The notes beneath the pieces are model-generated. The model had not been told where the DNA came from, ran no database searches, and saw nothing but the letters and a program-made list of their open reading frames with translations. Shown here one piece after another: positions 3,415-17,941 of a DNA stretch of 22,849 nt. The stretch's first letter is position 1. Each line of letters begins with the position of its first letter. The stretch is from a virus. Made by a program: the position numbers and the translations under genes. The DNA lies in the IMG/VR virus record IMGVR_UViG_3300049595_002668, positions 1 through 22,849 of that record; one strand, given 5' to 3'.

Positions 3415-3466
3415 CAGATCCATTCTCAATAAGCCAGGTGTGGCAGGCCTCCTGGCCGTTGCGGCA

Positions 3467-3658
3467 ATGATCCGGAGTGCTACGGTGGGACCCCGCCGAC
3501 GACCGCCTGTGTGCCAGCACGTGAGCATCAAGCTGCCCTTAGATTTCCTGGAATGGGCAGAGGCCAAGGCGCGTGAGAAGCGCCAGACGCGAAGCGCGAT
3601 CATTCGGGACGCGATCCTTGAGGCGATGAACCGGGACCAAGCAACCGCCCGGGTCTGA
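3467..3658 (+). CDS. Ribbon-helix-helix (CopG/Arc-like) DNA-binding protein
   Basis: The C-terminal half is a compact ribbon-helix-helix unit: a beta strand HVSIKLPLDF, helix one (LEWAEAKAREKR) and helix two (TRSAIIRDAILEAMNRD). RHH proteins bind short repeated sites as dimers and often repress their own operons. The ATG at 3467 gives 63 aa. The open frame extends to an ATG at 3386, but that ATG and the following sequence lie in the repeat array, so I prefer the shorter form; a GTG at 3521 (VSIKLP) is another choice. No clear Shine-Dalgarno site is seen. The gene lies immediately right of the heptamer/palindrome array, its likely binding site, and ends one base before the primase ATG. Confidence 0.75.
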   Translation: MIRSATVGPRRRPPVCQHVSIKLPLDFLEWAEAKAREKRQTRSAIIRDAILEAMNRDQATARV

Positions 3659-3659
3659 G

Positions 3660-5792: not shown

Positions 5793-6069
5793 CGACCTCG
5801 ACGCTGAAGCCCAGATCACGCAGCTCCTGGATTCGGTGCTCTTGGATGGGTGACAGGCGCCCACGAGAGGCCTTGACTTCGACGAAGAGGATGCCGCGGT
5901 CGGGATGGCATAGCAGAAGATCCGGCAGACCTGCGACGGATGTACGCAGGAGCCGGATCACATACCATCCGTCGGCCTTGTATTGCTTAACCAACCTTGC
6001 CTGAAAGGCTGCCTCGGTCCGCTCTGAAGTGGGCTGCGGTATAGGACTCCTTCGCCCGGACTTTGTCAT
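5752..6069 (-). CDS. VRR-NUC domain nuclease
   Basis: This 105-aa stand-alone VRR-NUC protein belongs to the PD-(D/E)XK nuclease fold. Visible catalytic set: Glu19 (TEAAFQARLV), GLPD at 47-50 with Asp50, FVEVKA at 62-67 with Glu64 and Lys66, and Gln76 in LSPIQ. Phage VRR-NUC proteins can act as structure-specific nucleases in recombination or packaging. Its start overlaps the helicase end by 83 bases, which is long, but the overlapping segment contains the conserved Glu19, so the full-length start at 6067-6069 is favoured. The 3' end overlaps the end of the primase gene by 41 bases in convergent orientation. Confidence 0.9.
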   Translation of the reverse strand: MTKSGRRSPIPQPTSERTEAAFQARLVKQYKADGWYVIRLLRTSVAGLPDLLLCHPDRGILFVEVKASRGRLSPIQEHRIQELRDLGFSVEVVKDQACNGTHDDR

Positions 6070-7258
6070 AGACCTTCAGTTCAAGGGAGTTGGCCGCAAG
6101 GATCCAGTGTACGCGCGGCGGGACGGTACGACCAAGGGCCGAGGCACGGTCGCGACCCTGCAGGTAGGAGAGGGCCGAGTAGTCGATACCGAGGAAGACG
6201 AGATCATCGGCGGGCGAGAGATTGACCCCTTCGCGTGAGGCCTGCACCTGCCCGATGAAGACGGAATCAGGCCGTGCGGCGAACTCCTCGGGTGAGTCAG
6301 TGGCCAGTGGGCCATAGGCCTGCCGAAGCATGACCCCTTCGGCCTGGAAGCAGTACAGAACTGCCAATCGTCCTCCCTCGATCCTATTGAGGATGTAGCG
6401 CACCTTGTTGGTGTCGAGGATGACCCCTTCGGCTGCCCCTTCTGGGATCACGGTGCCGGAGTACATCTGCCGGAGCTTCGACATCTGCTTGGCTGCGGTA
6501 TCAGCCACGACGGGCCACTGTCCTCTGCCAACGGTGACCACGCCATCCCGCATGAGCTTCCCGGCGTCGGCATAGGTTTGGGGTGCCATCCGCACCTGAT
6601 GGACCTGCTCGATGATCTGAGTTTGAAAGCCGGCCTGCTGCTGGGTGATGCGCACCATGTGCGGCGCCAGGTCGGCCATGATGATTTCCGGATTGGCGTA
6701 GGAGTAGTCGTTGACCTCCTGACCGGTGCCGACCCGCTTGGTGCGGATGTTGACGTAATCCGCGGCGGCCCACTTGTAGAACGACGGCTCCTGCCATGGG
6801 ACGGCGGTGGAGAGGCCAGCGGCAGAGGCAATGCGGACCTGGTGGTAGAGCTGCGAGAGGGACTCGGGGGAGGGTGTACCGGAGAGCAGGATGCAGCGGC
6901 CGTAGTCGAGCCGCGCCACCTGCCTGGCCCGCAGGGATGCTTTCGGGTAGGCCCCGAGGCAGTGGGCCTCGTCGAGGATGAGGAGGTCGTAATGGCCCAC
7001 GAGCTTATGGACCTGCTCGTAGTTGGTGACGTGCACCCGATCGTTGAGGCCGAGGGCGTCCCGGTCTGCCTCGATGGAGGCGATGGCCTTCTTCTTGGTG
7101 AGGAACAGGCAGCGCGTGACCATCATGCGGCGCGCGACCTCAAGGACGGTGAGGGTCTTGCCGACGCGCACTTCCCCGGCGAGGTAGGCCCAGCCGTCAC
7201 GGGAGACGCGGGTGAGAAGGTCGTCTGCGGCTGCGAGCTGGTGTGGTCGTAGGTCCAT
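5987..7258 (-). CDS. SF2 DEAD/SNF2-type helicase
   Basis: This is an ATP-dependent DNA translocase or helicase of 423 aa. Motifs in order: RPHQ (4-7, Q-motif-like), Walker A GEVRVGKT (28-35), motif Ia region LFLTKKKA, Walker B/motif II LLILDEAH (92-99), motif III LLSGTPSPES (124-133), motif V SREGVNLSPADDLVFLG (341-357) and motif VI QGRDRASALGR (367-377) with the arginine finger. This is a compact phage SNF2-like architecture. It lies directly upstream of the VRR-NUC gene and overlaps it, so the two are probably expressed and may act together. Its ATG (7256-7258) faces the plus-strand operon across a 163-base divergent region. Confidence 0.93.
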   Translation of the reverse strand: MDLRPHQLAAADDLLTRVSRDGWAYLAGEVRVGKTLTVLEVARRMMVTRCLFLTKKKAIASIEADRDALGLNDRVHVTNYEQVHKLVGHYDLLILDEAHCLGAYPKASLRARQVARLDYGRCILLSGTPSPESLSQLYHQVRIASAAGLSTAVPWQEPSFYKWAAADYVNIRTKRVGTGQEVNDYSYANPEIIMADLAPHMVRITQQQAGFQTQIIEQVHQVRMAPQTYADAGKLMRDGVVTVGRGQWPVVADTAAKQMSKLRQMYSGTVIPEGAAEGVILDTNKVRYILNRIEGGRLAVLYCFQAEGVMLRQAYGPLATDSPEEFAARPDSVFIGQVQASREGVNLSPADDLVFLGIDYSALSYLQGRDRASALGRTVPPRVHWILAANSLELKVYDKVRAKESYTAAHFRADRGSLSGKVG

Positions 7259-7421
7259 CGTGAAGATTCTCGGTGGTGAGCGGTGGCGATCCCCGCTGAG
7301 CTATGGTAGGCTATGTGCATCGGGAGGCAACCGCCTCTCACGGGGCACTGACCCCTGGCCCGCAGGGAGCCTGCCAGATCGTCGGCAATCCCTGCACCCC
7401 CACCACCACCACCCACCACCC
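7259..7421. promoter_or_regulatory. Divergent intergenic region between helicase and recombination operon
   Basis: This 163-base gap separates the minus helicase/nuclease unit from the plus operon, so it should carry promoters for both. On the plus strand it contains an extended -10-like TGgTAGGCT (7304-7312), a hairpin GAGGC-AACC-GCCTC (7324-7337), a second weak stem (GGGG at 7342-7345 with CCCC ten bases later) and a CCACC tract (about 7401-7421) running into the ATG. No convincing minus-strand promoter was picked out. Confidence 0.55.
7304..7312 (+). promoter_or_regulatory. Possible extended -10 promoter for the plus operon
   Basis: TGgTAGGCT has the TGn extension plus a -10 hexamer matching the consensus at the first, second and last bases. 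A -35 at 17-base spacing (TGGCGA, 7284-7289) is weak. The start site would be near 7319-7320, placing the GAGGC/GCCTC hairpin at the very 5' end of the transcript, as at the promoter near 13095-13123. Confidence 0.4.
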
Positions 7422-7607
7422 ATGACCAAATACCAAGCGACCTACGCGATGGTTGTGCAGATCGTCGTTGAGCTTGATGAAGACGACATCGAGCGTGCAC
7501 AAGCGGAGGCCCGGCTGATACAGCCATCGGTCGAGCTGGCCAACCTGCGCGGCCACGCATGGATCGACGACACCGCCACCCTTGCGCCGATGGTGACCGC
7601 ACGATGA
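7422..7607 (+). CDS. Small acidic-centre hypothetical protein, 61 aa
   Basis: The frame starts at the ATG at 7422 (MTKYQATYAMVVQIVVELD) right after the CCACCACC leader; an open extension upstream to 7212 runs into the leader and the divergent gene, so it is rejected. The product has an N-terminal beta strand pattern (YAMVVQIVVELD) followed by an acidic helix (EDDIERAQAEARL), a common layout in small phage proteins. No family was identified. Its stop overlaps the next gene start (ATGA at 7604-7607), so it heads the recombination operon. Confidence 0.75.
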   Translation: MTKYQATYAMVVQIVVELDEDDIERAQAEARLIQPSVELANLRGHAWIDDTATLAPMVTAR

Positions 7608-8392
7608 ACCCTGCTGCATACCACGCACATCCGGCCCTGTCGGCCACGCGGCTCAAGCGTGCCCTGACCGGCACTGCCCGTCGGTTCCACGTCCCGGTCG
7701 AGCGCACCGACGCCATGCGGCAAGGGTCGCTGATCGACTGCCTGGCCTTGACGCCTGGCCTGTTCGAGCACCGCTACATCGTGGCGCCTGAGGGCCTTGA
7801 CCGCCGCACCAAGGACGGCAAAGCATGGTGGGCGGAGGCCAGCCAAGGGAAGCGCGAGATCATCAGCCACGAGTGGCACGTCACGGCCGCCAGCATCGTG
7901 GTGCATCTGCTCAGTGACCCGGCGATCCGGCCGCTGATCGATCGAGCATCGCAGCAGATTCACTTCTGGTTTGATGCTGATGGTGTTGAGTGCCGGTACC
8001 TGCCGGACATCGAGGCGCCGGGCCTGCTGGTCGACATGAAGAAAGCCGCCCGCACCGACCCTGCTGGATTCGCGGCTGACGCCTATGCCCGCGGCTACGA
8101 CGTGCAGATGGCTCATTACCTGTTGGGCCATCTCAACAAGTTCGAGACCACCGACATCCCGCGCCTTGGCTTCATTGCCTACGAATGGCACCAACGGCCT
8201 GATGTGGGGCTCTACTGGCTGCCGGGCGAATGGCTCGAAGAGGGCCTGCGCCGCCGCGAGATCGCCAAGGCCCGGGTGTTGGAGTGGGAGGCCCATCTGA
8301 CCAACACCAGCCATCCGGAGCAGACGCTGCCCCTACCGCGGTGGGCGGGCTTCGACGGCCCAGCCCCTGAGCTTGCCCCTGAACACTTCTGA
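7604..8392 (+). CDS. RecE-like PD-(D/E)XK exonuclease
   Basis: This 262-aa protein matches the exodeoxyribonuclease VIII/DUF3799-type nucleases that resect double-strand ends in phage recombination. Features: HPALSATRLKRAL at the N-terminus (substrate entry helix), GSLIDCL (41-47), the catalytic core CRYLPDIEAPGLLVDMKKA with Asp135, Asp144 and Lys146 (the PD...DxK pattern), and the RecB-family motif YDVQMAHY with Tyr165, Gln168 and Tyr172. The start at 7604 is chosen from the ATGA overlap with the upstream stop. The next gene is a Rad52-type annealase, giving the classic exonuclease plus annealing protein pair (compare RecE/RecT or Red). Confidence 0.9.
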   Translation: MNPAAYHAHPALSATRLKRALTGTARRFHVPVERTDAMRQGSLIDCLALTPGLFEHRYIVAPEGLDRRTKDGKAWWAEASQGKREIISHEWHVTAASIVVHLLSDPAIRPLIDRASQQIHFWFDADGVECRYLPDIEAPGLLVDMKKAARTDPAGFAADAYARGYDVQMAHYLLGHLNKFETTDIPRLGFIAYEWHQRPDVGLYWLPGEWLEEGLRRREIAKARVLEWEAHLTNTSHPEQTLPLPRWAGFDGPAPELAPEHF

Positions 8393-8397
8393 TCACC

Positions 8398-9027
8398 ATG
8401 ACCTTCACCACAGAACAGATCACCCAGCTGCAGGCACCGCTCAACCGTGGGGCCGTCCAGCAGCGCAGCCAGTCGGGACGGCAGCTGAGCTACCTCGAGG
8501 GTTGGCACGTGATCGCGGAAGCCAATCGGATCTTTGGCTTTGATGCCTGGACCCGAGAGACGATCGAGATCCGCTGCGTCAGTGAGCGCGAACGCGGGAT
8601 TGGCCGCGACCAGAAGCCAGGGTGGGGCGTCACGTACATCGCCCGGGTGCGGGTCATGGTTGACGGGCTGGCCCGTGAGGGCTGCGGCGCCGGCCATGGC
8701 ATCGACGCAGATCTGGGGCTGGCGCATGAATCGGCGATCAAGGAGGCCGAGACCGATGCGATGAAACGTGCCCTGATGACGTTCGGCAACCCCTTCGGGC
8801 TGGCGCTGTATGACAAGCAGCAACGGCAGGTGCAGGACGAACCGCAGCAGTCGGCGGCATACCTGGCGGGTGAGAAGGCGATCCAAGGTGCCAAGACCGC
8901 GGCAGAGCTTGCGACGATCCGTGATCGGATTGATCTGCGGCTGACGAATGGCGACCTGTCTGTCGAGGATGCCACTGCCCTGAGAGAGCAGCTGGCATCT
9001 GCTGCCGAACGACTTGGTGCTGCATGA
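8398..9027 (+). CDS. Rad52/Rad22-family single-strand annealing protein
   Basis: This 209-aa phage Rad52-like recombinase pairs complementary single strands produced by the adjacent exonuclease. Evidence is the N-terminal annealing domain: LSYLEGWHVIAEANRIFGFDAW (residues 30-51, quoted in part: EANRIFGFDAW), VTYIARVRVMVDG (78-90), GAGHG (97-101), and the hallmark AHESAIKEAETDAMKRAL (109-126) with FGNPFGLALYDK (129-140). The C-terminus is a variable helical tail. It begins 5 bases after the exonuclease stop and ends overlapping the next gene (ATGA at 9024). Confidence 0.95.
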   Translation: MTFTTEQITQLQAPLNRGAVQQRSQSGRQLSYLEGWHVIAEANRIFGFDAWTRETIEIRCVSERERGIGRDQKPGWGVTYIARVRVMVDGLAREGCGAGHGIDADLGLAHESAIKEAETDAMKRALMTFGNPFGLALYDKQQRQVQDEPQQSAAYLAGEKAIQGAKTAAELATIRDRIDLRLTNGDLSVEDATALREQLASAAERLGAA

Positions 9028-9236
9028 CCGAGACCGGACTAACACCACCTCAGCTGGCCGACCGCTGGGGATTGAGCCAGCACACATTGAGAGGCTGGCG
9101 ACTGCGCGGGATTGGCCCTCCATGGGTCACCCGCCCGCGGCTTGGCACCCCATACGGCCAAAGCCGCGTCCTGTACCCCCTGCCTGGCGTCCTGGCCTTC
9201 GAGGAAGCGCAAGGCATCACACCTATCAAACCCTGA
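9024..9236 (+). CDS. MerR/excisionase-like helix-turn-helix protein
   Basis: This 70-aa protein has a winged-helix pattern: LTPPQLADRWGLSQHTLRGW (residues 6-25) is a helix-turn-helix, RLRGIGPPWV follows as the wing entry, and RVLYPLPGVLAFEE (48-61) matches the 'R-x-Y-x-x-x-D/G-V-x-x-F/Y-E' ending of AlpA/excisionase-type HTH_17 proteins. It is a DNA-binding regulator or excisionase-like factor. It overlaps the rad52-like gene by 4 bases and precedes ssb by 5 bases, so it is coexpressed with the recombination genes. No integrase lies in this window, so a regulatory role is more likely than excision. Confidence 0.8.
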   Translation: MTETGLTPPQLADRWGLSQHTLRGWRLRGIGPPWVTRPRLGTPYGQSRVLYPLPGVLAFEEAQGITPIKP

Positions 9237-9241
9237 GAGCA

Positions 9242-9589
9242 ATGAACAGCATTACGATTGTGGGCCGCGCTGGCCGTGACCCTGAGGTGAAGTTTCTGGA
9301 CGGCGGTAAGGTCGTCGCAAAGCTGAGCCTGGCGTCCAACGGATGGAGCAAGGAAGCCGAGACGAACTGGTTCGACCTGGAGATCTGGGGCAAACAGGCC
9401 CAGGTGGCGGCTGACTATGTGAAGAAGGGAAGCCAGATTGGTGTCGTCGGCACGATCAAGACGGAGGGATGGACCGACAAGACGACGGGCCAGAAGCGAA
9501 CGAAACAGGTAGTCAATGTGAACACGCTGCAGCTGCTGGGCAGCAAGCCTGCCGGCGCCGGCTCTGCCCCTGCCGATGAGGAGTTCTGA
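9242..9589 (+). CDS. ssb: Single-stranded DNA-binding protein
   Basis: This 115-aa OB-fold SSB starts MNSITIVGRAGRDPEVKF and has the conserved core WFDLEIWGKQAQVAADYVKKG, the VVGTIK strand and the NVNTLQLLGSK end. It binds single strands made during replication and recombination. The C-terminus is short and acidic (ADEEF), equivalent to the DDIPF protein-interaction tip of bacterial SSBs. The ATG at 9242 is preferred; an upstream extension in frame overlaps the HTH gene. Its wording is close to what I recall for picocyanobacterial SSB and suggests host origin. It ends overlapping the next gene (TGATG). Confidence 0.95.
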   Translation: MNSITIVGRAGRDPEVKFLDGGKVVAKLSLASNGWSKEAETNWFDLEIWGKQAQVAADYVKKGSQIGVVGTIKTEGWTDKTTGQKRTKQVVNVNTLQLLGSKPAGAGSAPADEEF

Positions 9590-9843
9590 TGACCTTGTGG
9601 AACCGAGTGTTGAACTTCATCCAGACCGCCCAACCGGGCGACAGCCTGGCCCTGTCGACCGACGCCTGCTGCGAGATGCGGCAGGGGATCTGGCTGCAGG
9701 CCGAACGGTCGCTGGCCCGCCGTGATCTGTTCGTCCACTGCCAGAACGAGGTGCCCCGGCTGGTGCGCCACGGCGGTGCCGCTGAGGTGCTGCGGACGGC
9801 GGGGGATCTGGCGGAGCGGACCGGCCGGGAGGTGATGTCGTGA
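9589..9843 (+). CDS. Hypothetical protein, 84 aa
   Basis: The frame starts at the ATG at 9589, sharing a base with the ssb stop (TGATG), and ends with TGA overlapping the GTG start of the next gene (GTGA). The product ([18 protein letters not shown] at the N-terminus; [20 protein letters not shown] mid-protein) looks soluble and helical, with two adjacent cysteines (DACCEM). No family was recognised. Tight coupling on both sides makes it a real gene of the recombination/early operon. Confidence 0.75.
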
Positions 9844-10517
9844 CTGCCACCGAACTGCAGGAGATGCTGCGCCTTCACGTGCTATGGCTGCAGAATGATC
9901 CGGAGGGGGTCAGGGCCAACCTGAGCAGGGCCAACCTGTACGGGGCCGACCTGAGCGGGGCCGACCTGAGCGGGGCCGACCTGAGCAGGGCCAACCTGTA
10001 CGGGGCCAACCTGAGCGGGGCCAACCTGTACGGGGCCAACCTGAGCGGGGCCGACCTGAGCGAGGCCAACCTGAGCAGGGCCAACCTGTACGGGGCCAAC
10101 CTGAGCGGGGCCGACCTGAGCGGGGCCAACCTGAGCAGGGCCAACCTGTACGGGGCCAACCTGAGCAGGGCCAACCTGAGCAGGGCCAACCTGAGCGGGG
10201 CCGACCTGAGCAGGGCAAAGGGGCTGCCAATCGTGGCAGATGCTCCAGCGCGGCTGCAGGCGGTGGCTGCGCAGGTTCTCAGCAACCCCGATTGCCTGCG
10301 GATGACCTGCTGGCACAGCAACTGCGGCACCAGCCATTGCCTTGCCGGCTGGGCCATTCACCAGGCCGGGCCGATCGGGGCCACGCTTGAAGCGCTCCAT
10401 GGGGCGCACCTGGCAGGCTTGCTACTGCTGGGGCATGACGCCGCAGCACGGTTCTATCAGTCGAACGAACAGGTCATTGAATGGCTGCGGTCGATCAGCC
10501 GCGACGGCGGGCCGTGA
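9840..10517 (+). CDS. Pentapeptide-repeat protein with [12 protein letters not shown]-terminal domain
   Basis: This 225-aa protein has a short N-terminal helix ([20 protein letters not shown]), then 20 consecutive A(D/N)LxX pentapeptides (residues 25-124), which should form a right-handed quadrilateral beta-helix of about five coils, and a C-terminal domain (residues 125-225) containing [18 protein letters not shown] and [13 protein letters not shown]. The C-terminal domain type is, as I recall, found with pentapeptide repeats in other phage proteins; its role is unknown. Some pentapeptide proteins mimic DNA and act on gyrase, but that is not shown here. The start is GTG (9840), overlapping the upstream stop (GTGA). 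Confidence 0.88.
9912..10211 (+). repeat. 15-bp tandem repeats encoding 20 pentapeptides
   Basis: Twenty in-phase 15-base units alternate a few near-identical forms (for example gggccaacctgagca and gggccaacctgtacg). The low nucleotide divergence between units suggests recent expansion by slippage or recombination, so the copy number may vary between related phages. The repeats also keep antisense frames open, which are not genes. Confidence 0.9.
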
Positions 10518-10573
10518 AGCCCCCACAGCGATCAGATCGTTGCCGACCGAACCCACCGCACCTTGGAGGACTA

Positions 10574-10942
10574 ATGGACCCGAACTACCGCGCCAGTGAA
10601 GGGCAGTGGACCAGCGTTGAAGACAAGGCCATTCGTCATCGACTTGCAGGCTCTGAATGCCTCCTTGAACTTCGCTCCCGCATCGAGGCGCTGGAGGCCG
10701 CGCAGCAGCTGGCCAACCATATTGCTGGCGCCAGCAAAATGGTTGCTCCGCCCGCGCCTGCCGGTGGGCTGGTGGAGCGGGTGGCTCACCTGCTGGCCAT
10801 GCGGTTCAGCAAGTCGTGCCCTGGCACCGACTGCACGCCGTTCGCCTGCGACGTGCTCCGCGAGGTGGCGGCATGGCTGCGGTCGGAGCCGTGGCTCGGT
10901 CGAGCCGCTGCAGACCGACTGGAGCAGGAGGCCAACCAATGA
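10574..10942 (+). CDS. Hypothetical protein, 122 aa
   Basis: The ATG at 10574 is preceded by a good Shine-Dalgarno site GGAGGA at 10565-10570, one of the few in the window, which fixes the start (MDPNYRASEGQWTS). The protein has a coiled-coil-like helix (LLELRSRIEALEAAQQLANH), a linker (APPAPAGGLV) and a helical C-terminal part with Cys residues (SKSCPGTDCTPFACDVLREVAAWL). This C-terminal pattern recurs, as I recall, in small cyanophage/prophage proteins without known function. The stop overlaps the next start (ATGA). Confidence 0.75.
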   Translation: MDPNYRASEGQWTSVEDKAIRHRLAGSECLLELRSRIEALEAAQQLANHIAGASKMVAPPAPAGGLVERVAHLLAMRFSKSCPGTDCTPFACDVLREVAAWLRSEPWLGRAAADRLEQEANQ

Positions 10943-11145
10943 TCCGCGTCACAAGCAACGGCGGCTGGATCGGCCCGCTGTGCTGGTCGAACACCCTGCC
11001 TGCCATCGTGGTCCCTGATTATCGATTCGCTGGCATCACCAGCTGCCTGCAGCCCTGGGGCCGCACCTACTGGCGCCTGCCGGGGGAGCCGTTCCGGCCG
11101 CTCACGAAACACAAGCAGTACACCGTCACCGAGAGCTTCCAATGA
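10939..11145 (+). CDS. Hypothetical protein, 68 aa
   Basis: The ATG at 10939 (MIRVTSNGGWIGPLCW) overlaps the upstream stop and has AGGAGG about ten bases upstream, so the start is well supported. The product is rich in aromatic residues (LQPWGRTYWRLPGEPFRPL) and probably forms a small beta-rich domain. No family was recognised. It ends with TGA overlapping the next start (ATGA at 11142). Confidence 0.7.
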   Translation: MIRVTSNGGWIGPLCWSNTLPAIVVPDYRFAGITSCLQPWGRTYWRLPGEPFRPLTKHKQYTVTESFQ

Positions 11146-11606
11146 CCACCGACTTCCGCGCCTTGTGCGCTGAGCTCTATGAGTGGCTGTGCGCATTTGC
11201 CTTGCGCGCTCCTCTTGACATAGGCAGTAAGGATGAGGATGAGCATGATCTGGCCTGCTCACTTAACCAGTTACTCGTCCGAGCCCGCGCCGCGCTGTCC
11301 GCCCCGGAGCAGGGGCCGACCGTCATGGAGATCATCGCCATGGCCGATGAGATCGAGGATGAATGCCTCGGGCAGGTCGATCTGGTCCGGCGTGCCCTCG
11401 CCCGCTGGGGCCGCCCTGCCGTCGAGCCGGTGCCGGTCGCTGAGCGGTTGCCGGGGGATCAGCTGTGCTGGTGGTTTGAGGCAGACGAAGACGGTGGCTA
11501 TGGCAGTAACTGGACCTTGCTGCGCATTCGTGGCAGCGCCATTGGTTACACCCACTGGCTGCCCCACTGGGCGCTGCCGGTGCCGGAGGAGGGGGCCGAT
11601 GGCTGA
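11142..11606 (+). CDS. DUF551-like phage protein, 154 aa
   Basis: The N-terminal part is helical (FRALCAELYEWLCAFAL; ARAALSAPEQGPTVMEIIAM). The C-terminal part resembles the DUF551 domain: RLPGDQLCWWFEADE (about 112-126), then WTLLRIRGS and the conserved ending THWLPHWALPVPE. DUF551 proteins are small, common in phages and prophages, and of unknown function. The start overlaps the upstream gene as ATGA and the end overlaps the zinc-ribbon gene by 8 bases. Confidence 0.75.
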   Translation: MTTDFRALCAELYEWLCAFALRAPLDIGSKDEDEHDLACSLNQLLVRARAALSAPEQGPTVMEIIAMADEIEDECLGQVDLVRRALARWGRPAVEPVPVAERLPGDQLCWWFEADEDGGYGSNWTLLRIRGSAIGYTHWLPHWALPVPEEGADG

Positions 11607-11781
11607 CCTGAACTGCACCCACACTCACCTCCCGGTCTGCCCTTACTGCGGCCATGTTGATTCAAGCCCATGGGAAATTGACCTTGCATCCGATGACGTT
11701 GCTGAAGTGACGTGCGGCGAATGTGATATGGACTACACGCTGTGCCAGCACGTCAAAGTGACCTACACATCCAAGCAATGA
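11599..11781 (+). CDS. Small zinc-ribbon-like protein, 60 aa
   Basis: The ATG at 11599 gives a 60-aa protein with two putative metal knuckles, CPYCGH (residues 15-20) and CGECDMDY (around 40-47), plus other Cys and His residues (CTHTH, LCQHV). Spacing fits a small zinc ribbon. A longer in-frame extension upstream overlaps the DUF551-like gene and is not credible. It could be a DNA/RNA-binding or adaptor protein; nothing more specific can be said. It ends with ATGA overlap to the next gene. Confidence 0.75.
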   Translation: MADLNCTHTHLPVCPYCGHVDSSPWEIDLASDDVAEVTCGECDMDYTLCQHVKVTYTSKQ

Positions 11782-12056
11782 AACAACCTCTCTCCCCCGC
11801 CGCGCAGGCGGTGCTGGATGCCTTCCTGAACGGCTACATCTGCAAGTCAAGTTGCAATGTTGCGTTTGATGCTGACCGCAATGGCATCGCCGCCGCCCTC
11901 CGCGCTCTGGCGGAGCAAATGCCAAACAGCTACCCGGCAAGCCTAGAGCAAATGCCAGAGGATGCTCGCCGCTGGTATCGCCTTGGGTTTGGCGCAGCTG
12001 GTAACTGCGACCGCTCATGGCTGAGTGCCATCGCCGCCGAGCTGAAGGGCAAATGA
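11778..12056 (+). CDS. Tandem paralog 1: small helical phage protein, 92 aa
   Basis: It begins MKQPLSPAAQAVLDAFLNGY and ends DRSWLSAIAAELKGK. The N-terminal motif QPLSPAAxAVxDAF recurs, as I recall, in small cyanobacterial and cyanophage proteins. It is a close paralog of the gene at 12136-12399: both share PLSPAA at the N-terminus and an almost identical 50-residue C-terminal half (ALRALAEQMPNSYPA, then EDARRWYRLGFGAAGNCDRSW). The centre differs (a Cys-containing segment CKSSCNVAF here). It overlaps both neighbours as ATGA. Confidence 0.75.
   Translation: MKQPLSPAAQAVLDAFLNGYICKSSCNVAFDADRNGIAAALRALAEQMPNSYPASLEQMPEDARRWYRLGFGAAGNCDRSWLSAIAAELKGK
11895..12044 (+). repeat. Direct repeat, copy 1 (with 12241-12390)
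   Basis: About 150 bases are repeated with a fixed offset of 346 bases at 12241-12390, differing at about four positions. The repeat covers the 3' halves of the two paralogous genes and could recombine to delete the 28-aa gene and fuse the paralogs. Confidence 0.85.
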
Positions 12057-12139
12057 TGGTCAACATCGACAGCGATTCCGTCCTGAATGTCATCGTCATC
12101 CTGGCGTTTCTGTATTACTCCTCGCGCAAATCACGATGA
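12053..12139 (+). CDS. 28-aa single-span membrane peptide
   Basis: A tiny frame starts at the ATG at 12053 (a second ATG at 12056) and ends with TGA at 12137-12139. The peptide has a short polar N-terminus (MMVNIDSDS), a hydrophobic core (VLNVIVILAFLYY) and a basic end (SSRKSR), a typical one-span micro-membrane protein. It overlaps the upstream stop as ATGA and the downstream start as ATGA, filling exactly the space between the two paralogs. This precise fit is the main evidence; the function is unknown. Confidence 0.6.
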   Translation: MMVNIDSDSVLNVIVILAFLYYSSRKSR

Positions 12140-12399
12140 ACCAACCTCTCTCCCCCGCCGCCAATGCCGCCTGGGAAGCGTTCAACGAAGTAGCTGAACG
12201 TGTCGGCGTGTTCGAGGACTACGGCGACGCGCTGGCGGCTGCCCTCCGCGCTCTGGCGGAGCAAATGCCAAACAGCTACCCGGCATGCCTGGAGCAAATG
12301 CCAGAGGATGCTCGCCGCTGGTATCGCCTTGGGTTTGGCGCAGCTGGTAACTGCGACCGCTCATGGCTGAGTGAAATCGCCGCCGAGCTGGAGTCCTGA
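12136..12399 (+). CDS. Tandem paralog 2: small helical phage protein, 87 aa
   Basis: It begins MNQPLSPAANAAWEAFNEVA and ends DRSWLSEIAAELES. Its last 50 residues are nearly identical to those of the gene at 11778-12056, and the DNA there differs at only about four positions over 150 bases, so the two arose by recent duplication or gene conversion. The middle (RVGVFEDYGDALAAALRAL) is distinct. The start overlaps the 28-aa gene as ATGA. A 58-base gap follows before the RTX-like gene. Confidence 0.75.
   Translation: MNQPLSPAANAAWEAFNEVAERVGVFEDYGDALAAALRALAEQMPNSYPACLEQMPEDARRWYRLGFGAAGNCDRSWLSEIAAELES
12241..12390 (+). repeat. Direct repeat, copy 2 (with 11895-12044)
   Basis: This is the second copy of the 150-base direct repeat described at 11895-12044, in the same orientation and the same reading frame. 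Confidence 0.85.
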
Positions 12400-12457
12400 C
12401 CCCGCGGCCCGCCGGAGCCGCACCCAATCCGGCCATCATCCACCGCATTCCCATCAC

Positions 12458-13057
12458 ATGGCCATCATCAAAGGCACCCTCAAGGCCGACATCCTGATCG
12501 GCACCGCTGCAGCCGATCAGTTCCACGTCAACAATCAAGGCGACACCATCATCAACGGCAACAGCCAGGACCAGGTGCTCTCCACCCTGGCGTCCTACCA
12601 GTTGCAAGACGGCCTCGGCAGCCTCGTGCTGGGCTCTGGCGCTGACGTGGGCATCGGCAACGACCTTGCCAACCGGATCGGCGGCAACCAGCGGAATAAC
12701 CTCCTCGACGGCGGGGCCGGCATGGACGAGCTGACCGGCGGCGGTGGAGCGGACGTGTTCCGCTTCAGCCATGCCGGGCAGGCCCACGCCGACTTCGTCA
12801 CTGACTTTCAGGTTGGCGTCGATCGGATTGCCATCAACGGCGCAGCGTTTGGCATCGCAGCTGGCACGCCGGTCGGCTATGAGCTGAACCAGCAGGCGAC
12901 CACCACGGCCCCGACGTTCCTGCGCTACGGCAGCCAGGGGACGGCCCAGTTGATCTACTTCGACCGGGACGGGATCGGCGGCGAGGCTGCGCAGCTCCTA
13001 TGCACCCTGCAGACGTTCGCTGGGGCCACCTCGGCGGCTGATTTCGCCATCATCTGA
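12458..13057 (+). CDS. RTX-type calcium-binding repeat protein
   Basis: This 199-aa protein has the glycine/aspartate-rich nonapeptide pattern of hemolysin-type (RTX) proteins: LVLGSGADVGIGNDLANRI (57-75), GGNQRNNLLDGGAGMDELTGG (76-96), then GADVFRF (97-103) and the typical flank FVTDFQVGVDRIAING (113-128). These fold as a calcium-binding beta roll; in bacteria they are often secreted by type I systems or surface-exposed. No catalytic domain is attached and there is no signal peptide. The upstream in-frame extension to 12371 overlaps the paralog gene, so the ATG at 12458 is preferred. In a phage it might be a virion or host-surface protein, or a moron gene; this is inference. Confidence 0.85.
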   Translation: MAIIKGTLKADILIGTAAADQFHVNNQGDTIINGNSQDQVLSTLASYQLQDGLGSLVLGSGADVGIGNDLANRIGGNQRNNLLDGGAGMDELTGGGGADVFRFSHAGQAHADFVTDFQVGVDRIAINGAAFGIAAGTPVGYELNQQATTTAPTFLRYGSQGTAQLIYFDRDGIGGEAAQLLCTLQTFAGATSAADFAII

Positions 13058-13094
13058 GGCCAGCGGGGGCGTGACGGACTGTTGCGCCCTCCCC

Positions 13095-13123
13095 TTGGCA
13101 ACGGTGGGACCCGGTGTTACTAT
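13095..13123 (+). promoter_or_regulatory. Sigma-70-like promoter before the membrane-HTH gene
   Basis: TTGGCA (13095-13100; 5 of 6 consensus bases) and TACTAT (13118-13123) are separated by exactly 17 bases, and the -10 is extended by TGt. The start site would fall near 13130. It lies in a 106-base gap after the RTX-like gene, so the downstream genes, ending with the two sigma factors, may be expressed separately. Confidence 0.6.
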
Positions 13124-13131
13124 CAAGCCAT

Positions 13132-13146
13132 GGGGCACGACGCCCC
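13132..13146 (+). promoter_or_regulatory. 5' leader hairpin
   Basis: GGGGC-ACGAC-GCCCC forms a perfect 5-bp stem immediately after the predicted start site and before a CCACCACC leader and the ATG at 13164. No T-run follows, so it is not a standard intrinsic terminator. It could stabilise the transcript or modulate translation. Confidence 0.45.
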
Positions 13147-13163
13147 GCCACCACCATCCACCA

Positions 13164-13352
13164 ATGACCACCACCCTTTGCCTTGCAGCAACGCTGCTGG
13201 CCATCCTCACCATCCCCGTTCTGATCCTGCTGTGGGCGACGGAGTCCAGGGATCAGCGGATTCGCCGCTGGCGTGCTGATGGCATGAGCCAGCAGGCGAT
13301 TGCTGACCGCCTCGGCATCACCCGCTACGCCGTCCGCCGCGCCCTTGCCTGA
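13164..13352 (+). CDS. Membrane-anchored helix-turn-helix protein, 62 aa
   Basis: The ATG at 13164 follows the CCACC leader. Residues 5-25 (LCLAATLLAILTIPVLILLW) form one membrane span. It is followed by a basic stretch (RDQRIRRWRADG) and a resolvase/Hin-type helix-turn-helix MSQQAIADRLGITRYAVRRA (41-60). The positive residues after the span predict that the HTH faces the cytoplasm. A small membrane-tethered DNA-binding protein is unusual; it could regulate transcription from the membrane or anchor phage DNA. Similar Hin-like HTH endings are common, but the fusion to a span is what stands out. It sits directly behind a good promoter. Confidence 0.75.
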   Translation: MTTTLCLAATLLAILTIPVLILLWATESRDQRIRRWRADGMSQQAIADRLGITRYAVRRALA

Positions 13353-13355
13353 GCT

Positions 13356-13982
13356 ATGTATCCACTCACCACCACCACCCGGCGCCTGATGGCGCATCAC
13401 CCCTGCAAAGAGGGGATCGCCAGACTTGCCGCCCATCTCGGCACGACTGAACCCAACGACCAGCCGATCGGCTACGACGTGCTGCTCGATGCGCTTGACC
13501 TTGATGATGCTCTCTGGTGCTGCAGGGCCGAACCGCAGCACGACCGCATCTGGCGACGGCATGTCGTCTGGTGCGCCAGGCAGGTGCAACACCTGATGAC
13601 CGATGAGCGCAGCCTGTCCGCACTGGATGTAGCCGAACGCCACGCCAATGGAGAGGCCACAGATGAGCAGCTGGCCGCCGCACGGGCCGCCGCAGGGGCC
13701 GCCGCACGGGCCGCCGAATGGGACGCCGTAGGGGCCGCCGAATGGGACGCCGTAGGGGCCGCCGCACTGGCCGCCGCACGGGCCGCCGCAGGGGCCGCCG
13801 CACGGGCCGCCGAATGGGACGCCGCATGGGCCGCCGCATGGGCCGCCGCACGGGACGCCGCAGGGGACGCCGCACGGGCCGCCGCATGGTACGCCGCATG
13901 GGACGCCGCACGGGCCGCGATGCGCGATCGGCAGGCGGCTGCCTTCCGACAACTCGTCACCACCGGTACCCTCCCTGACTGA
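13356..13982 (+). CDS. Alanine-rich repeat protein, 208 aa
   Basis: The N-terminal 100 residues form a conserved-looking domain: HHPCKEGIARLAAHLG, PIGYDVLLDALDLDDALWCCRA and RSLSALDVAERHANGEATDE. I recall this as a family of phage/bacterial proteins in which the C-terminus is a variable Ala-rich helix. Residues 107-190 are Ala-rich with interspersed Arg, Trp and Asp (ARAAAGAAARAAEWDA, AAWAAAWAAARDAAG), probably a long amphipathic helix or coiled coil. The function is unknown. The start lies 3 bases after the upstream stop (TGAGCTATG). Confidence 0.8.
   Translation: MYPLTTTTRRLMAHHPCKEGIARLAAHLGTTEPNDQPIGYDVLLDALDLDDALWCCRAEPQHDRIWRRHVVWCARQVQHLMTDERSLSALDVAERHANGEATDEQLAAARAAAGAAARAAEWDAVGAAEWDAVGAAALAAARAAAGAAARAAEWDAAWAAAWAAARDAAGDAARAAAWYAAWDAARAAMRDRQAAAFRQLVTTGTLPD
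13675..13919 (+). repeat. GCCGCC-type tandem repeats in the Ala-rich gene
   Basis: Degenerate 6-, 12- and 24-base units built from gccgccgca, cgggccgcc and tgggacgcc are repeated in phase with the reading frame. Repeat-driven length variation between relatives is likely. The composition keeps several antisense frames open. Confidence 0.8.
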
Positions 13983-13985
13983 GCT

Positions 13986-14147
13986 ATGAAAGCAACAATC
14001 GATGTCGAAGGGGTGCTCACCGTCATCCCCGAAAACGAATGCGAAGCCTACGCATTGAAGCGATGGCAGCAGAACTACAGGACGGGCGACGACACAAGCC
14101 TTCTGTGTCTGGCATGGGACTTTCCGCTTGAGGGCGCCGAACCATGA
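13986..14147 (+). CDS. Small hypothetical protein, 53 aa
   Basis: The ATG at 13986 follows the upstream stop by 3 bases (TGAGCTATG) and the TGA at 14145-14147 overlaps the next start as ATGA. The product (MKATIDVEGVLTVIPENECE at the N-terminus; SLLCLAWDFPLEGAEP at the C-terminus) has a beta hairpin-like start and an aromatic C-terminal patch. I recall similar MKATIDxxGxLTIxPE... small proteins in phages, with no known role. Both junctions support it strongly despite its size. Confidence 0.75.
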   Translation: MKATIDVEGVLTVIPENECEAYALKRWQQNYRTGDDTSLLCLAWDFPLEGAEP

Positions 14148-14611
14148 TCGAGAACCACTACCGCGGTTATGCCGCGATTGGCCTTAACCGGCCCAAAACA
14201 CCACACAACATCGGAAGCGTCATGCGTGCTGCCGGTTGCTATGGGGCGTCAGTCGTCTGCATCGCCGGTCAGCGATTCGCAAGATCCAGCACCGACACCC
14301 AACAGCAGCATCGGCATACACCTGTCATCACGTGCGACGACCTCCACGACGTGATCCCATATGGGGCTGTTCCTGTGGCGGTTGACTTGATCAGCGATGC
14401 AATCCCACTGCCTGAATATGTGCACCCTGAAAGGGCCTTCTATATCTTCGGCCCTGAGGATGGCACACTCGGCCGGCAAACGATTGAATGGTGTCGAGAT
14501 GTGATCTACATCCCGACTCGATACTGCATGAATCTTGCCGCGACCGTGAACGTGGTCCTTTATGACCGCATGGCCAAGCGTGGCGAGCAATCTCAGCAGT
14601 TCGCCACCTGA
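14144..14611 (+). CDS. SPOUT (TrmH/SpoU-family) RNA methyltransferase
   Basis: This 155-aa knotted methyltransferase likely 2'-O-methylates tRNA or rRNA using S-adenosylmethionine. The three SpoU motifs are visible: NRPKTPHNIGSVMRAAG (15-31, with Asn22 and the catalytic Arg28), IFGPEDGTLG (101-110) and YCMNLAATVNVVLYDR (127-142). It is the minimal single-domain size, like TrmL, without an added RNA-binding domain. It overlaps the upstream 53-aa gene (ATGA) and sits just before two sigma genes. It could modify host tRNA during infection; the substrate cannot be told from sequence. Confidence 0.92.
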   Translation: MIENHYRGYAAIGLNRPKTPHNIGSVMRAAGCYGASVVCIAGQRFARSSTDTQQQHRHTPVITCDDLHDVIPYGAVPVAVDLISDAIPLPEYVHPERAFYIFGPEDGTLGRQTIEWCRDVIYIPTRYCMNLAATVNVVLYDRMAKRGEQSQQFAT

Positions 14612-14614
14612 GCC

Positions 14615-15466
14615 ATGGCCAACCTCATCACCGCGGCGCTGCGGGTGCCGCTGCTGCATCGAGATCAGGAGATCGCCCTAGGCCGGCAGGTGCAGGCCTG
14701 GATGGCCATCCGCGACACAGAACCCACCACCGCCGCCGATCGCCGCACCTGGCGTCGTGGCATCCGCGCCAGGGATCAACTGGTCGTCCATAACCTGCGC
14801 TTCGCCTATCGGTTCATCAGCCGTCATCTGCGGTGCTGCAAGACCCTCGACCGTGAGGACCTGCTGCAGGCCGCCACCATTGGCCTGACACGTGCCGCCG
14901 AGCTGTTCAAGCCGGAGCACGGCTATCGGTTCGTGACCTACGCGACCCTGTGGATCCGGCAGGCGGTGGATCGTGAGATCTGGATGGCTGATGATCCGAT
15001 CCGGATCCCGGCCAACCTGCACACCATGAAGGCCAAGATCGGCAGCCTGACCAGTTCTGGCATGAGTCCAGAGGATGCGATGGCGGCGGCATTGCAGGGC
15101 CGCACGACACCGCCGGAACTGCTTGAGGCGGCACTATCCGTCACCCGTCCCCTGGCATCGCTTGACGGCCCGGTGCGCGACTGCCCGGACCTCAACCTGC
15201 ATGAGACGATCGCTGATGGTGGCCCGTTGCCGCTGGATCTGGTCGCCGATGAGATCGGCACTGAACTGGTGCAGGTGCATGTGTTGCGGCTCAGGGACTT
15301 GCAGCGCGACATCATCGAGCGGGTCTATGGGTTCAATACAGAACCGCAACCGATGACCGCCATCGCCCGCGAGACCAAGCGGAGCCGACAGGCGGTGAAA
15401 CAGATCCACGACCGCGCTATATCTCAACTGGAGCGAATGATCAACGCTGACCCTGCCATCCAATGA
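14615..15466 (+). CDS. Sigma-70 family sigma factor 1
   Basis: This 283-aa sigma has a region 1.2-like start (VPLLHRDQEIALGRQVQAW), region 2 (residues 54-122: VVHNLRFAYRFISRHL, DREDLLQAATIGLTRAAELF, then GYRFVTYATLWIRQAVDREI), a short region 3, the spacer LDGPVRDCPDLNLHETIAD and a region 4 helix-turn-helix (LRDLQRDIIERVYGF, MTAIARETKRSRQAVKQIHD). It should direct host RNA polymerase to particular promoters. It diverges from host housekeeping sigma in region 2.4 and in the -35-binding helix, so it may recognise phage promoters. It is coupled to the second sigma by an ATGA overlap. Confidence 0.93.
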   Translation: MANLITAALRVPLLHRDQEIALGRQVQAWMAIRDTEPTTAADRRTWRRGIRARDQLVVHNLRFAYRFISRHLRCCKTLDREDLLQAATIGLTRAAELFKPEHGYRFVTYATLWIRQAVDREIWMADDPIRIPANLHTMKAKIGSLTSSGMSPEDAMAAALQGRTTPPELLEAALSVTRPLASLDGPVRDCPDLNLHETIADGGPLPLDLVADEIGTELVQVHVLRLRDLQRDIIERVYGFNTEPQPMTAIARETKRSRQAVKQIHDRAISQLERMINADPAIQ

Positions 15467-16308
15467 CCACCACCACCGTCCACATCTCCCACGGCTATCA
15501 GACCTTCATGGATGCCGTGAAGCGGTACAAGCTGCTGACGGCAGAGGAAGAGATCCTGTTGGCCCGCAAGATTGCCAAAGGGTCGAAGCGTGCCCATGAA
15601 CGGATGATGCTGTGCAATCTGAGGCTGGTTGCCAAGATTGCAAGCACCATCTTTCATAAGCGCCGGCCGCAGACGTTAACGATTGAGGATCTGTTCCAGG
15701 CTGGGACCTTCGGCCTGAGTCGTGCCGTCAGCGGGTGGGATCCTGAGCGCGGCTATAAGTTCTCGACGTATGCCTACTGGTGGATTCAGCAGGCGATCAA
15801 TCGAGAGATCATGTATCAGGACGGTGCGATCAGGCTGAAGACCAGACCGCAGCGGTTGCTGTCGCAGGTGTCGACGTGGATGGCCCGCAATGGGCAGCAG
15901 CAGCCGACGCTACGTGATGCTGTTGATGCGTTGGGGCTGGACTACGACGAGGTGCTGGGCTACATCAGCGCCCAGCTGGGACCGGTGAGCCTAGATAAGG
16001 TGATCGGCGATAGTGACGACCTGGACTTGGGGAGTGTGCTGCAGGGCGATGGTGACCCGTCGGAGTATGTCGAGGCCATGGAGCTATGCGGGAGGGTGCA
16101 TGAGGCGTTGGATGCGTTGGAACCCGAAGAGGCCCATGCGATACGGGCAACCTATGGGATCTGCACTGATCATGATGCGATGTCGATTCGAGAGTATGTC
16201 CGGGAGCACGACGTGACGCAGTTTAAGGCGGAGAGGCGAATCAGGGGTGGGATTGTAAAGCTGAGAAGACTTCTTGCATCAACCACGCAATTTTCGAGCG
16301 CGAGGTAG
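15463..16308 (+). CDS. Sigma-70 family sigma factor 2
   Basis: This 281-aa sigma carries a strong region 2: MLCNLRLVAKIASTI, LTIEDLFQAGTFGLSRAV and DPERGYKFSTYAYWWIQQA (93-111), the last close to cyanobacterial RpoD-family sequence. Region 3 (PTLRDAVDALGLDYDEVLGYIS) and the spacer (PVSLDKVIGDSDDLDLGSVL) are recognisable. Region 4 (residues 214-272) is poor: the helix-turn-helix is not clear (SIREYVREHDVTQFKAERRI), so it may bind -35 elements differently or depend on another factor. It is only distantly similar to its neighbour. The last 68 bases overlap an opposing small gene. Confidence 0.93.
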   Translation: MTTTTVHISHGYQTFMDAVKRYKLLTAEEEILLARKIAKGSKRAHERMMLCNLRLVAKIASTIFHKRRPQTLTIEDLFQAGTFGLSRAVSGWDPERGYKFSTYAYWWIQQAINREIMYQDGAIRLKTRPQRLLSQVSTWMARNGQQQPTLRDAVDALGLDYDEVLGYISAQLGPVSLDKVIGDSDDLDLGSVLQGDGDPSEYVEAMELCGRVHEALDALEPEEAHAIRATYGICTDHDAMSIREYVREHDVTQFKAERRIRGGIVKLRRLLASTTQFSSAR

Positions 16309-16441: not shown

Positions 16442-16619
16442 GTGCACGCCTGAAAGTTGCCCTAGGTTGCCGACATTGCAACAGGTCGAGACTGATGATG
16501 GACCGATGTGGCTGGGCTGCTATGACGGGCAGTGCTGGCAGCACCACCAGCGGTGGCAGGTGATGGTATGGCTGCAGGCCCGGTCACGCCCGGATCAGCA
16601 ATGCCCAGCCGGTAGCTGA
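16440..16619 (+). CDS. Possible small protein, 59 aa (uncertain)
   Basis: A plus-strand frame from the ATG at 16440 to the TGA at 16617 reads MCTPESCPRLPTLQQVETDD, then PMWLGCYDGQCWQHHQRW and VMVWLQARSRP. The aromatic-rich, G/C-ending codons in the second half look coding, and it occupies an otherwise empty stretch. Against it, there is no Shine-Dalgarno site, its ATG overlaps the ATG of the opposite-strand gene, and its end overlaps the endolysin stop. An internal ATG (GPMWLG) is an alternative start. The function is unknown. Confidence 0.4.
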   Translation: MCTPESCPRLPTLQQVETDDGPMWLGCYDGQCWQHHQRWQVMVWLQARSRPDQQCPAGS

Positions 16620-17744
16620 GCCGTCGGGCATCCAGCGAGGCAGCCAGTTCCGGCGGCTGTAGCGGATCCCGGCGCCATTGGCATTGGAGACATAGCCGCC
16701 GTTGACGAGGTTGGCTTCACCGTTGGGGTCGTTGTGGTAGAAGGCGTCGGCATCGAAGCCGATCGCGACCGTCCAATGGCCCCCACCGGATGGGGACGTG
16801 GCAGAGCCATGGTGCAACCAGCCGACAGGCACCGGCCGCCCGGCACGCAGCTCAGCTTCGAGTAGGTCCGGCCCGCAGTTGGTCCGCAGGGTGGCCTCAA
16901 TGCCAAGGGACCGGAGGGCTGCCAGCTGGGCATGTGCGTCGGTGGTATCACCGAACTTGGCCCGGATGACGTTGTAGGCGTCGTCGGACGTGACCTTGCC
17001 GTAGAACGCGGCGACCATGGCGCACGATGAGCTGAAGCACTCGCGGAAGCCAGCGCCAGAGACGTTGTCGTTCTGCGAGAAGTAGGGCACCTGCAGCCGG
17101 ACGGACGCCGCCTGCACAGCCTCGCCCCATAGCTTGGCCTCAGCATTACGACGGCGGCGCAGACCCGCCTCTGACGGGCCGCCGGGATTGACGTAGAGCC
17201 GCATGGCATCGGGCACCGCGGGCCAGTTGCCGTCGCGTAGGGCCTTGGTGATGGTGTCAAAGCCTGAGGCACCGTAGAAGCCAGCCCCGACGTTGTAGGC
17301 GAAGCTCAGGATGGCGGCCTGTTGCCGTGCTGAGAGCTTGCGCCAGGTCGGGATCGACCGGCCTAGCTTGGGCTCCAGCACGTCGCGGACGTGGCTGTCG
17401 AGCATCTGATCGGCGACCCCCCGGGTGATGGTGTCGCCCTGCTTCACCCGGGACCCGTCGAAGTGCGTGGTTGCACCCCAGCCGATGGTCCACGGCTCAC
17501 CGCCGGTCTCGGGATCGGGGTAGGCCAACAGACGGCACCCCTCGAACTCCCGAATCAACGGCAATGCCAGCTTGACCGCGGGATTGTCCGGTGCCTTCGG
17601 TGGTGGGCCAGCACGGAACATCTCGAAGAAGCGTTCCCGCGCCTCTGGCGTCAACCCTTCATCCAGCCAGTTCCATGCCGCGGCCTGATGAGGTTCGGGC
17701 GGGTTAGGGGTGAAGCGTGCAGCGTCGATGAGTTTGCCGGTCAT
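16584..17744 (-). CDS. Modular endolysin: GH24 lysozyme plus C39-like peptidase
   Basis: This is the probable lysis enzyme, 386 aa from the ATG at 17742-17744 (MTGKLIDAARFTPNPP); the frame is open 58 codons further upstream but there overlaps the preceding gene. Residues 58-210 are a T4-type glycoside hydrolase 24 lysozyme with Glu68 (REFEGCRLLAYPDP), Asp77 and Thr86 (WTIGWGAT) as the catalytic set, plus LSFAYNVGAG and NPGGPSEAGLRRRRNAE. Residues 215-386 resemble a papain-like C39-type peptidase with LQVPYFSQND, a candidate Cys236 (RECFSSSCAM), His323 (GGHWTVAIGFD) and Asp339 (YHNDP). It could cut both glycan and peptide bonds. No signal peptide is seen, so export probably needs the holin. 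Confidence 0.93.
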   Translation of the reverse strand: MTGKLIDAARFTPNPPEPHQAAAWNWLDEGLTPEARERFFEMFRAGPPPKAPDNPAVKLALPLIREFEGCRLLAYPDPETGGEPWTIGWGATTHFDGSRVKQGDTITRGVADQMLDSHVRDVLEPKLGRSIPTWRKLSARQQAAILSFAYNVGAGFYGASGFDTITKALRDGNWPAVPDAMRLYVNPGGPSEAGLRRRRNAEAKLWGEAVQAASVRLQVPYFSQNDNVSGAGFRECFSSSCAMVAAFYGKVTSDDAYNVIRAKFGDTTDAHAQLAALRSLGIEATLRTNCGPDLLEAELRAGRPVPVGWLHHGSATSPSGGGHWTVAIGFDADAFYHNDPNGEANLVNGGYVSNANGAGIRYSRRNWLPRWMPDGSATGWALLIRA

Positions 17745-17941
17745 AGCTGGTGGGGCGGTTGTTGGAATAGGGAGAACAGTTGAGAGCCGAGGCCAAGGAC
17801 GGTAGCGGTCGTGAGTTGCCATTCCTGCTGGCACTGCTGCGACCGACTGCCGGCGCGGATCTCGCAGACGCTGACCTGTGCAACGGCAAGACCTAGGGCC
17901 GTACCCCAGACGATGCAAAGGAGGCGCAGGAACAGGATCAT
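17741..17941 (-). CDS. Small membrane/exported protein in lysis cassette, 66 aa
   Basis: The ATG at 17939-17941 overlaps the upstream stop (ATGA) and the TGA at 17741 overlaps the endolysin start (ATGA). The protein begins with a hydrophobic signal-like or membrane segment (MILFLRLLCIVWGTALGLAV), then has two Cys in VSVCEIRAGSRSQQCQQEW and a second moderately hydrophobic stretch (TTATVLGLGSQLFSLF). Two spans would suit a small holin; the single N-terminal segment with a Cys pair would suit a periplasmic lysis accessory. No lipobox is seen. A lysis role is inferred from position. Confidence 0.7.
   Translation of the reverse strand: MILFLRLLCIVWGTALGLAVAQVSVCEIRAGSRSQQCQQEWQLTTATVLGLGSQLFSLFQQPPHQL

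Follow-up and report, generated by a model that had tools for sequence, protein, structure and literature searches.

A coupled pair of sigma-70-type genes, probably acting at the early-to-late switch, closes the early operon of a small cyanosiphophage

Results

Two intact sigma-70 family genes close the early operon

The early operon of a cyanosiphophage ends in two adjacent genes, S1 and S2, that are intact and evolutionarily constrained, are predicted to encode proteins with a sigma fold and are conserved as a pair in related phages. We consider it probable that S1 and S2 are functional phage sigma-70-type factors that jointly redirect the host RNA polymerase at the early-to-late switch. In the mechanism that we propose, S1 and S2, the two closing genes of the early operon (about 3386 to 16308), would be translated in a coupled manner, and their products would displace the host sigma from the cyanobacterial RNA polymerase core or compete with it there. 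They would switch on the late operon, which carries the packaging, head, tail and lysozyme genes, from a control region near 3140-3470. The job done in relatives by a single sigma would here be split between two proteins whose promoter-reading parts have diverged differently, and S1 and S2 would most likely differ in the promoters they favour or in the timing of their action.

The genes of the pair are as follows.

14615-15466, + strand: S1, sigma-70 family factor of 283 aa (ORF list, Pfam, AlphaFold2, Foldseek, dN/dS, conserved columns)
15463-16308, + strand: S2, sigma-70 family factor of 281 aa (ORF list, Pfam, AlphaFold2, Foldseek, dN/dS, conserved columns)
15463-15466, + strand: ATGA stop/start overlap of S1 and S2 (sequence; same overlap in the related records G001, G002 and G003 and in the distant phage G052)

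A preliminary description had reported two complete sigma-70 genes sharing four bases, and both open reading frames were found at exactly the positions it gave. The ATGA overlap makes translational coupling of S1 and S2 likely. Region 2 of the sigma-70 family was matched twice in the record of the window (the whole stretch of 22,849 nucleotides analysed here), by S1 and by S2 only. In S1, a weak region 1.2 is followed by a non-conserved insert, region 2, region 3 or a linker, and a region 4 helix-turn-helix; Pfam recognised region 2 (E 6e-12, 45.5 bits for a cut-off of 24) and region 4 (E 4e-6, 26.6 bits for a cut-off of 24.1). The insert between regions 1.2 and 2 is shared by S1 with other cyanosiphophage sigmas, whereas S2 lacks it. 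S2 comprises regions 1.2, 2 and 3 and then a region 4 with a diverged sequence and a predicted fold; its Pfam region 2 match reached E 4e-14 (52.7 bits for the same cut-off of 24), region 1.2 was above its cut-off (E 1e-7), region 3 was slightly under (E 1e-4), and the Pfam search gave no region 4 match even at E <= 10. This last segment is nevertheless covered collinearly by two whole-length profiles, rpoS TIGR02394 (residues 10-273) and sigma70-ECF TIGR02937 (46-270).

The best NCBIfam family for both proteins, by far, is the cyanobacterial RpoD-like group 2 family TIGR02997, with 122 bits for S1 and 154 bits for S2. As these scores lie far below the membership cut-off of 384.5 bits, the two proteins are best described as RpoD-like and not as members of the family. 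Searches of solved structures with S1 and S2 returned SigA, RpoD and RpoS subunits throughout. The two sigmas are 28% identical over 205 aa (BLASTP, E 6e-22), so that calling them unrelated-looking, as was done at first, was too strong.

Genome context

The window is a fragment of a cyanosiphophage genome of ~42.5 kb, with about 21 kb missing from the late module. It matches G003 (IMGVR_UViG_3300042560_001019; 42,622 bp) in two blocks at about 92% identity, and the 127-bp exact terminal repeat of G003 indicates that this record is a circular assembly of about 42.5 kb. The early block, on the + strand, extends from ~3386 to the sigma pair and encodes a ribbon-helix-helix (RHH) protein, a VapE-type primase, a RecE exonuclease, a Rad52-type annealing protein and an SSB. 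The late operon, on the - strand, runs from ~3216 via the terminase and, after the missing part, reaches a lysozyme gene that faces S2. A terminator was looked for between S2 and this gene, and none was found.

16584-17918, - strand: lysozyme/endolysin gene, last of the late operon and convergent with S1/S2 (Phage_lysozyme, E 1e-23)

Some neighbouring genes vary among relatives. A SpoU-type RNA methyltransferase gene (14144-14611) has been inserted immediately ahead of S1 together with a gene for an alanine-rich repeat protein (phrog_18326), in the segment 13358-14607; both genes are absent from the three relatives, in which a gene with a predicted HTH stands 3 bp before S1. Upstream of the pair, 13071-13352 encodes a small protein that is hydrophobic near its N-terminus and ends in an HTH similar to sigma region 4, and regulation of the pair by this protein is possible. 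A pentapeptide-repeat protein is encoded at 9840-10517, in a slot (9749-10569) whose content differs from relative to relative. Inside the early block, a SNF2-type helicase gene and a nuclease-like gene (5752-7258, - strand) run against the early operon, and the DNA upstream of the helicase, from 7259 onwards, is replaced in relatives. The stretch 7259-7421, put forward earlier as a promoter worth testing, was dropped as unconserved among relatives.

The tandem pair is conserved in close relatives and rare elsewhere

The expectation that related phages would keep the pair was borne out: it is intact in G001, G002 and G003, which come from three other samples, with 98% identity for S1, 95% for S2 and an identical ATGA overlap. 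The recurrence of the pair in these contigs and in a distant phage rules out a frame or assembly artefact.

IMG/VR was scanned with three alignments and two single proteins; these scans, each taken to its best 80 matches, yielded at least 308 sigma ORFs in at least 131 clusters at 90% identity; the counts of loci and pairs that follow describe this sample and are not a census. Among the matches listed, 108 clusters had at least 1 kb on both sides, and six of them pair up within 1 kb. A tandem pair was present at 3 of about 105 sigma loci among these matches, namely in the clade of the window, in G052 and in G056. G052 is a 43-kb phage of 50% G+C whose shared replication proteins are 36-47% identical to those of the window, its other genes being at most ~35-65% identical; the last two genes of its early block are sigmas that share the same ATGA, and a convergent lysozyme gene comes next. 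In G056, the two sigmas are separated by a 197 bp gap and lie beside the lysozyme gene.

The location itself is common. Nearly all cyanosiphophages sampled carry a sigma at the same spot, and among the matches listed, 48 clusters extended 3 kb or more downstream of the sigma, and in 45 of these a lysozyme gene no more than 5 kb away is convergent with it. The S1/S2 pair, placed at the end of its block and convergent with the lysozyme gene, occupies the usual position of this lysozyme-side cyanosiphophage sigma. A limited search of the open-access literature found no description of a coupled RpoD-like pair at the single-sigma site of relatives in so small a genome.

Both sigmas are predicted to fold and are under purifying selection

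AlphaFold2 predicted regions 1.2, 2, 3 and 4 for both proteins, with a mean pLDDT of 80.3 for S1 and 82.3 for S2. In the prediction for S2, region 4 forms a helix-turn-helix with helices at 221-231, 242-249 and 253-272, in blocks of pLDDT ~80-93. The best Foldseek matches of both models were all sigma subunits in initiation complexes, the first being an actinobacterial sigmaA/HrdB for S1 (8dy9 chain F, E 9e-12) and sigmaS for S2 (5ipl chain F, E 3e-14). It should be noted that the whole-chain TM-scores are low, about 0.4, because the placement of the domains differs, which is to be expected when domains sit on flexible linkers and are predicted without the core enzyme; the structural support of these models is thus limited to the domain folds.

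Between the window and G003, dN/dS was 0.07 for S1 and 0.12 for S2, within the 0.03-0.27 of the other genes, and the purifying selection on the pair resembles that on the replication and packaging genes. Region 4 of S2 taken by itself had 5.0 non-synonymous changes in 175 sites, compared with 13 synonymous ones in 53 sites. Describing this segment as degenerate was therefore an overstatement, given its collinear profile matches, predicted helix-turn-helix and purifying selection. The dN/dS values rule out S2 as a decayed copy, and AlphaFold2, Foldseek and dN/dS together indicate that neither sigma is decayed or devoid of the fold, so that the outcome named in advance as counting against the pair did not occur.

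Regarding the origin of the pair, a quick maximum-likelihood tree placed S1 and S2 among phage sigmas and did not make them sisters; both branches are very long, at ~2.6-2.7 changes per column, which makes this branching order tentative. Holding the two together was not rejected (AU p 0.80). A recent tandem duplication is ruled out by the 28% identity, whereas an old one is compatible with the AU result. Direct capture of a host sigma is unsupported, since the nearest cellular relatives are about 39% identical; a tree with S2 among the host sigmas was not rejected (p 0.74).

These observations bear on the alternative that the pair is a redundant duplication, in which one sigma was duplicated or a second one picked up and both copies, doing the same job, are kept for dosage or by drift. 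We regard this as unlikely. The two genes do share a place, an operon and, presumably, coupled translation, the AU test leaves a sister relation standing, and one sigma suffices in most relatives. Redundant copies would be expected to decay, however, whereas S1 and S2 are both constrained despite the long separation implied by their low identity and by the insert found in S1 only, and they are not sisters in the free tree.

The switch probably acts on the divergent control region

The late and early operons diverge from a control region, listed here with the first early gene.

3140-3470, no strand assigned: control region separating the divergent late (-) and early (+) operons (conservation, repeats, promoter scan)
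3386-3658, + strand: first early gene, ribbon-helix-helix (CopG-type) protein (RHH_1, E 9e-5, over cut-off)

The segment 3180-3420 is nearly unchanged in four contigs whose genes differ by about 8%. Eight of the nine AGGTATG sites of the window fall within 210 bp of the control region, where AGGTATG(G) forms short tandem arrays on both sides and in either orientation. RHH proteins commonly bind such repeats; the region (3180-3450) is thus a probable operator array by its sequence, and the product of the first early gene is a candidate regulator of it. The annotated starts of the ORFs at 3386 and 3216 lie within the repeats and have probably been set too far upstream; the first early gene probably starts downstream of the repeats.

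A consensus scan, which has little power at 63% G+C, detected no sigma-70-type promoter on the late strand of the control region, in agreement with the initial remark that the DNA upstream of the late operon lacks a clear host promoter. On the early strand, the same scan gave one weak sigma-70-type site (3289-3316, 9 of 12 positions, 0.3 expected). The missing late-strand site is consistent with a late promoter dependent on a phage factor, and we infer that the control region is the likely target of the early-to-late switch. In the promoter motif search TATAAT was absent, and no pair of distinct motifs attributable to S1 and S2 was found, a result that counts against the proposed mechanism. 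The sequence ATATAGGGG occurs twice, 20 bp apart, at 3232-3260 on the - strand, reading in the late direction, with no further copy in the window or in G003; it is a candidate late promoter element, although two copies are too few to define a motif.

The same region suggests another arrangement, in which the late switch is operated by the RHH protein acting at its operators, by replication, or by both, leaving the sigmas to serve a few auxiliary or host promoters. The RHH gene is the first of the early operon, eight of nine AGGTATG sites crowd into 210 bp of nearly invariant DNA, a repressor-like RHH protein with such operators could time the late operon alone, and some phage sigmas are dispensable, for example g120 of SP10 (PMC9429907). 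By contrast, phages of this group carry a sigma at the early/late boundary as a rule, a pattern that speaks for a core role, and a switch by the RHH protein and a switch by the sigmas are mutually compatible. We therefore think it quite unlikely that the sigmas are confined to such an accessory part, and retain their joint action on the late operon as the preferred explanation.

S1 and S2 are altered in different promoter-reading segments

The 45 alignment columns conserved in at least 85% of relatives were compared across 134 rows. Departures from the conserved residue numbered 12 in S1, the highest of all rows and mostly within region 2, and 9 in S2; the relatives depart at 2.2 columns on average and at 10 at most. 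At region 2.3/2.4 the two proteins are altered at different residues. In S1, the first tryptophan of the dyad is replaced by leucine (W433L equivalent) and the serine of FSTY by valine (S428V equivalent). S2 keeps both tryptophans of the dyad, and the arginine of WWIRQ is a glutamine (R436Q equivalent). Both proteins lack the glutamate of the DL-Q-E-G motif of region 2.2. We take these altered positions to correspond to E. coli W433, S428, R436 and E407. The tryptophan dyad opens the -10 element, and in E. coli the DL-Q-E-G glutamate helps core binding, so that its loss weighs against the proposed role of the pair. Region 4, by contrast, is more canonical in S1 than in S2. The contrast drawn at the outset between an S1 with normal domains and an S2 with a degenerate C-terminus thus has to be redrawn: the deviations are split between the two proteins, and region 2 is the more altered in S1.

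As the residues that differ lie at the sites that read the -10 and -35 elements, distinct promoter choice by S1 and S2 is likely. A division of labour or a sequential cascade is plausible as a hypothesis. The alternative that one of them, probably S1, serves host takeover, mainly titrating the core RNA polymerase or silencing host transcription that depends on sigma, with promoter reading left to the other, would suit the 12 departures at 45 columns, the most of 134 rows, with losses in the segment that reads and melts the -10 element including one dyad tryptophan, but is improbable given that S1 has the more canonical region 4 (Pfam match over cut-off) and is the more constrained protein (dN/dS 0.07 vs 0.12 for S2).

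A third, late-module sigma-like gene

The window record ends short of the part of the genome that, in G003, holds a third sigma-like gene.

L051:17679-18386, - strand: third sigma-like gene of G003, region 2 only, 235 aa (Pfam region 2 over cut-off)

On the late strand, this gene immediately follows the one for the head-tail adaptor (phrog_477), and Pfam region 4 was not found in its product. It is 99-100% identical in nine further contigs, except for one truncated copy at 98%. Relatives of the protein, 181-214 aa long, occur in other cyanosiphophages (L045, L395 and L404 are among them), and those of G104 and G057 are again encoded directly after a head-tail adaptor gene. In G007, G057, G102, G104 and G105, an ordinary sigma is present elsewhere in the record besides the gene of this third type. 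ORF003 of the Prochlorococcus phage P-SS2 is a distant relative of the same late-module family (39 bits).

We tentatively extend the proposal to a three-factor programme in a 42.5-kb siphophage, a possibility in which we place limited confidence. Co-translated S1, with altered -10 reading and melting and a canonical region 4, and S2, with the melting residues kept and a diverged region 4, would open distinct promoter sets; the region-2-only factor of the late head-tail module would act last or on another promoter class; and at least three phage lineages would have gained or kept the tandem.

Discussion

Cyanosiphophages are the least understood cyanophages, and a limited open-access literature search found no experimental study of their gene timing. 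The tandem pair, together with the third sigma-like gene of its close kin, suggests an unusually elaborate gene-switching system for a 42-kb virus. Two sigmas of nearly equal length that are coupled and differently altered offer a natural test of how promoter reading may be divided within one small genome, and the pair points to a third, previously unlinked family of late-module sigma-like proteins. S1 and S2 would also supply small, orthogonal sigma factors for cyanobacteria.

The closest known systems are the cyanosiphophages S-CBS1, S-CBS3, KBS-S-2A and S-LBS1, whose single sigma, annotated as rpsD4 or cyanobacterial RpoD-like, belongs to the same superfamily, is 31-37% identical to S1 and stands at the end of the early/replication block. 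In S-CBS1, S-CBS3 and S-LBS1 it is convergent with the lysozyme gene, as are S1/S2; in KBS-S-2A it faces minus-strand genes, lysozyme being unannotated there. Unlike the phage of the window, these four phages have one sigma only, with a region 2 near consensus and no coupled second gene.

Two sigmas in one phage, thought at first to be unusual, are not so by themselves. The siphophage P-SS2 has two (PMC2784084), ORF113 of group 2 and ORF003 of group 3, the latter beside the terminase gene. It resembles the phage studied here as a cyanosiphophage with one sigma near the replication genes and one in the late/packaging part, but its sigmas are far apart, neither tandem nor coupled, and one of them is of the group-2 type instead of two. 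Three sigmas each are encoded by SPO1 (the middle sigma gp28, the late sigma gp34 and a third) and by SP10, including a sporulation-like sigma, and there the sigma cascade is proven (PMC9429907). These phages likewise carry several sigmas in one genome; they are myophages of more than 130 kb with a Bacillota host, and are likened here by description and not by sequence. SPO1 uses different sigmas for its middle and late classes; a comparable split between S1 and S2 is a hypothesis.

The phage-encoded sigma for late genes of T4 (gp55) and of cyanomyophages, described in PMC5780444, provides an analogue for the role that S1/S2 likely have here; according to the same source, T4 late transcription also requires gp33 and the gp45 clamp. 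Unlike gp55, S1 and S2 have a predicted set of regions from 1.2 through 4, and the profiles they group with are cyanobacterial RpoD-like.
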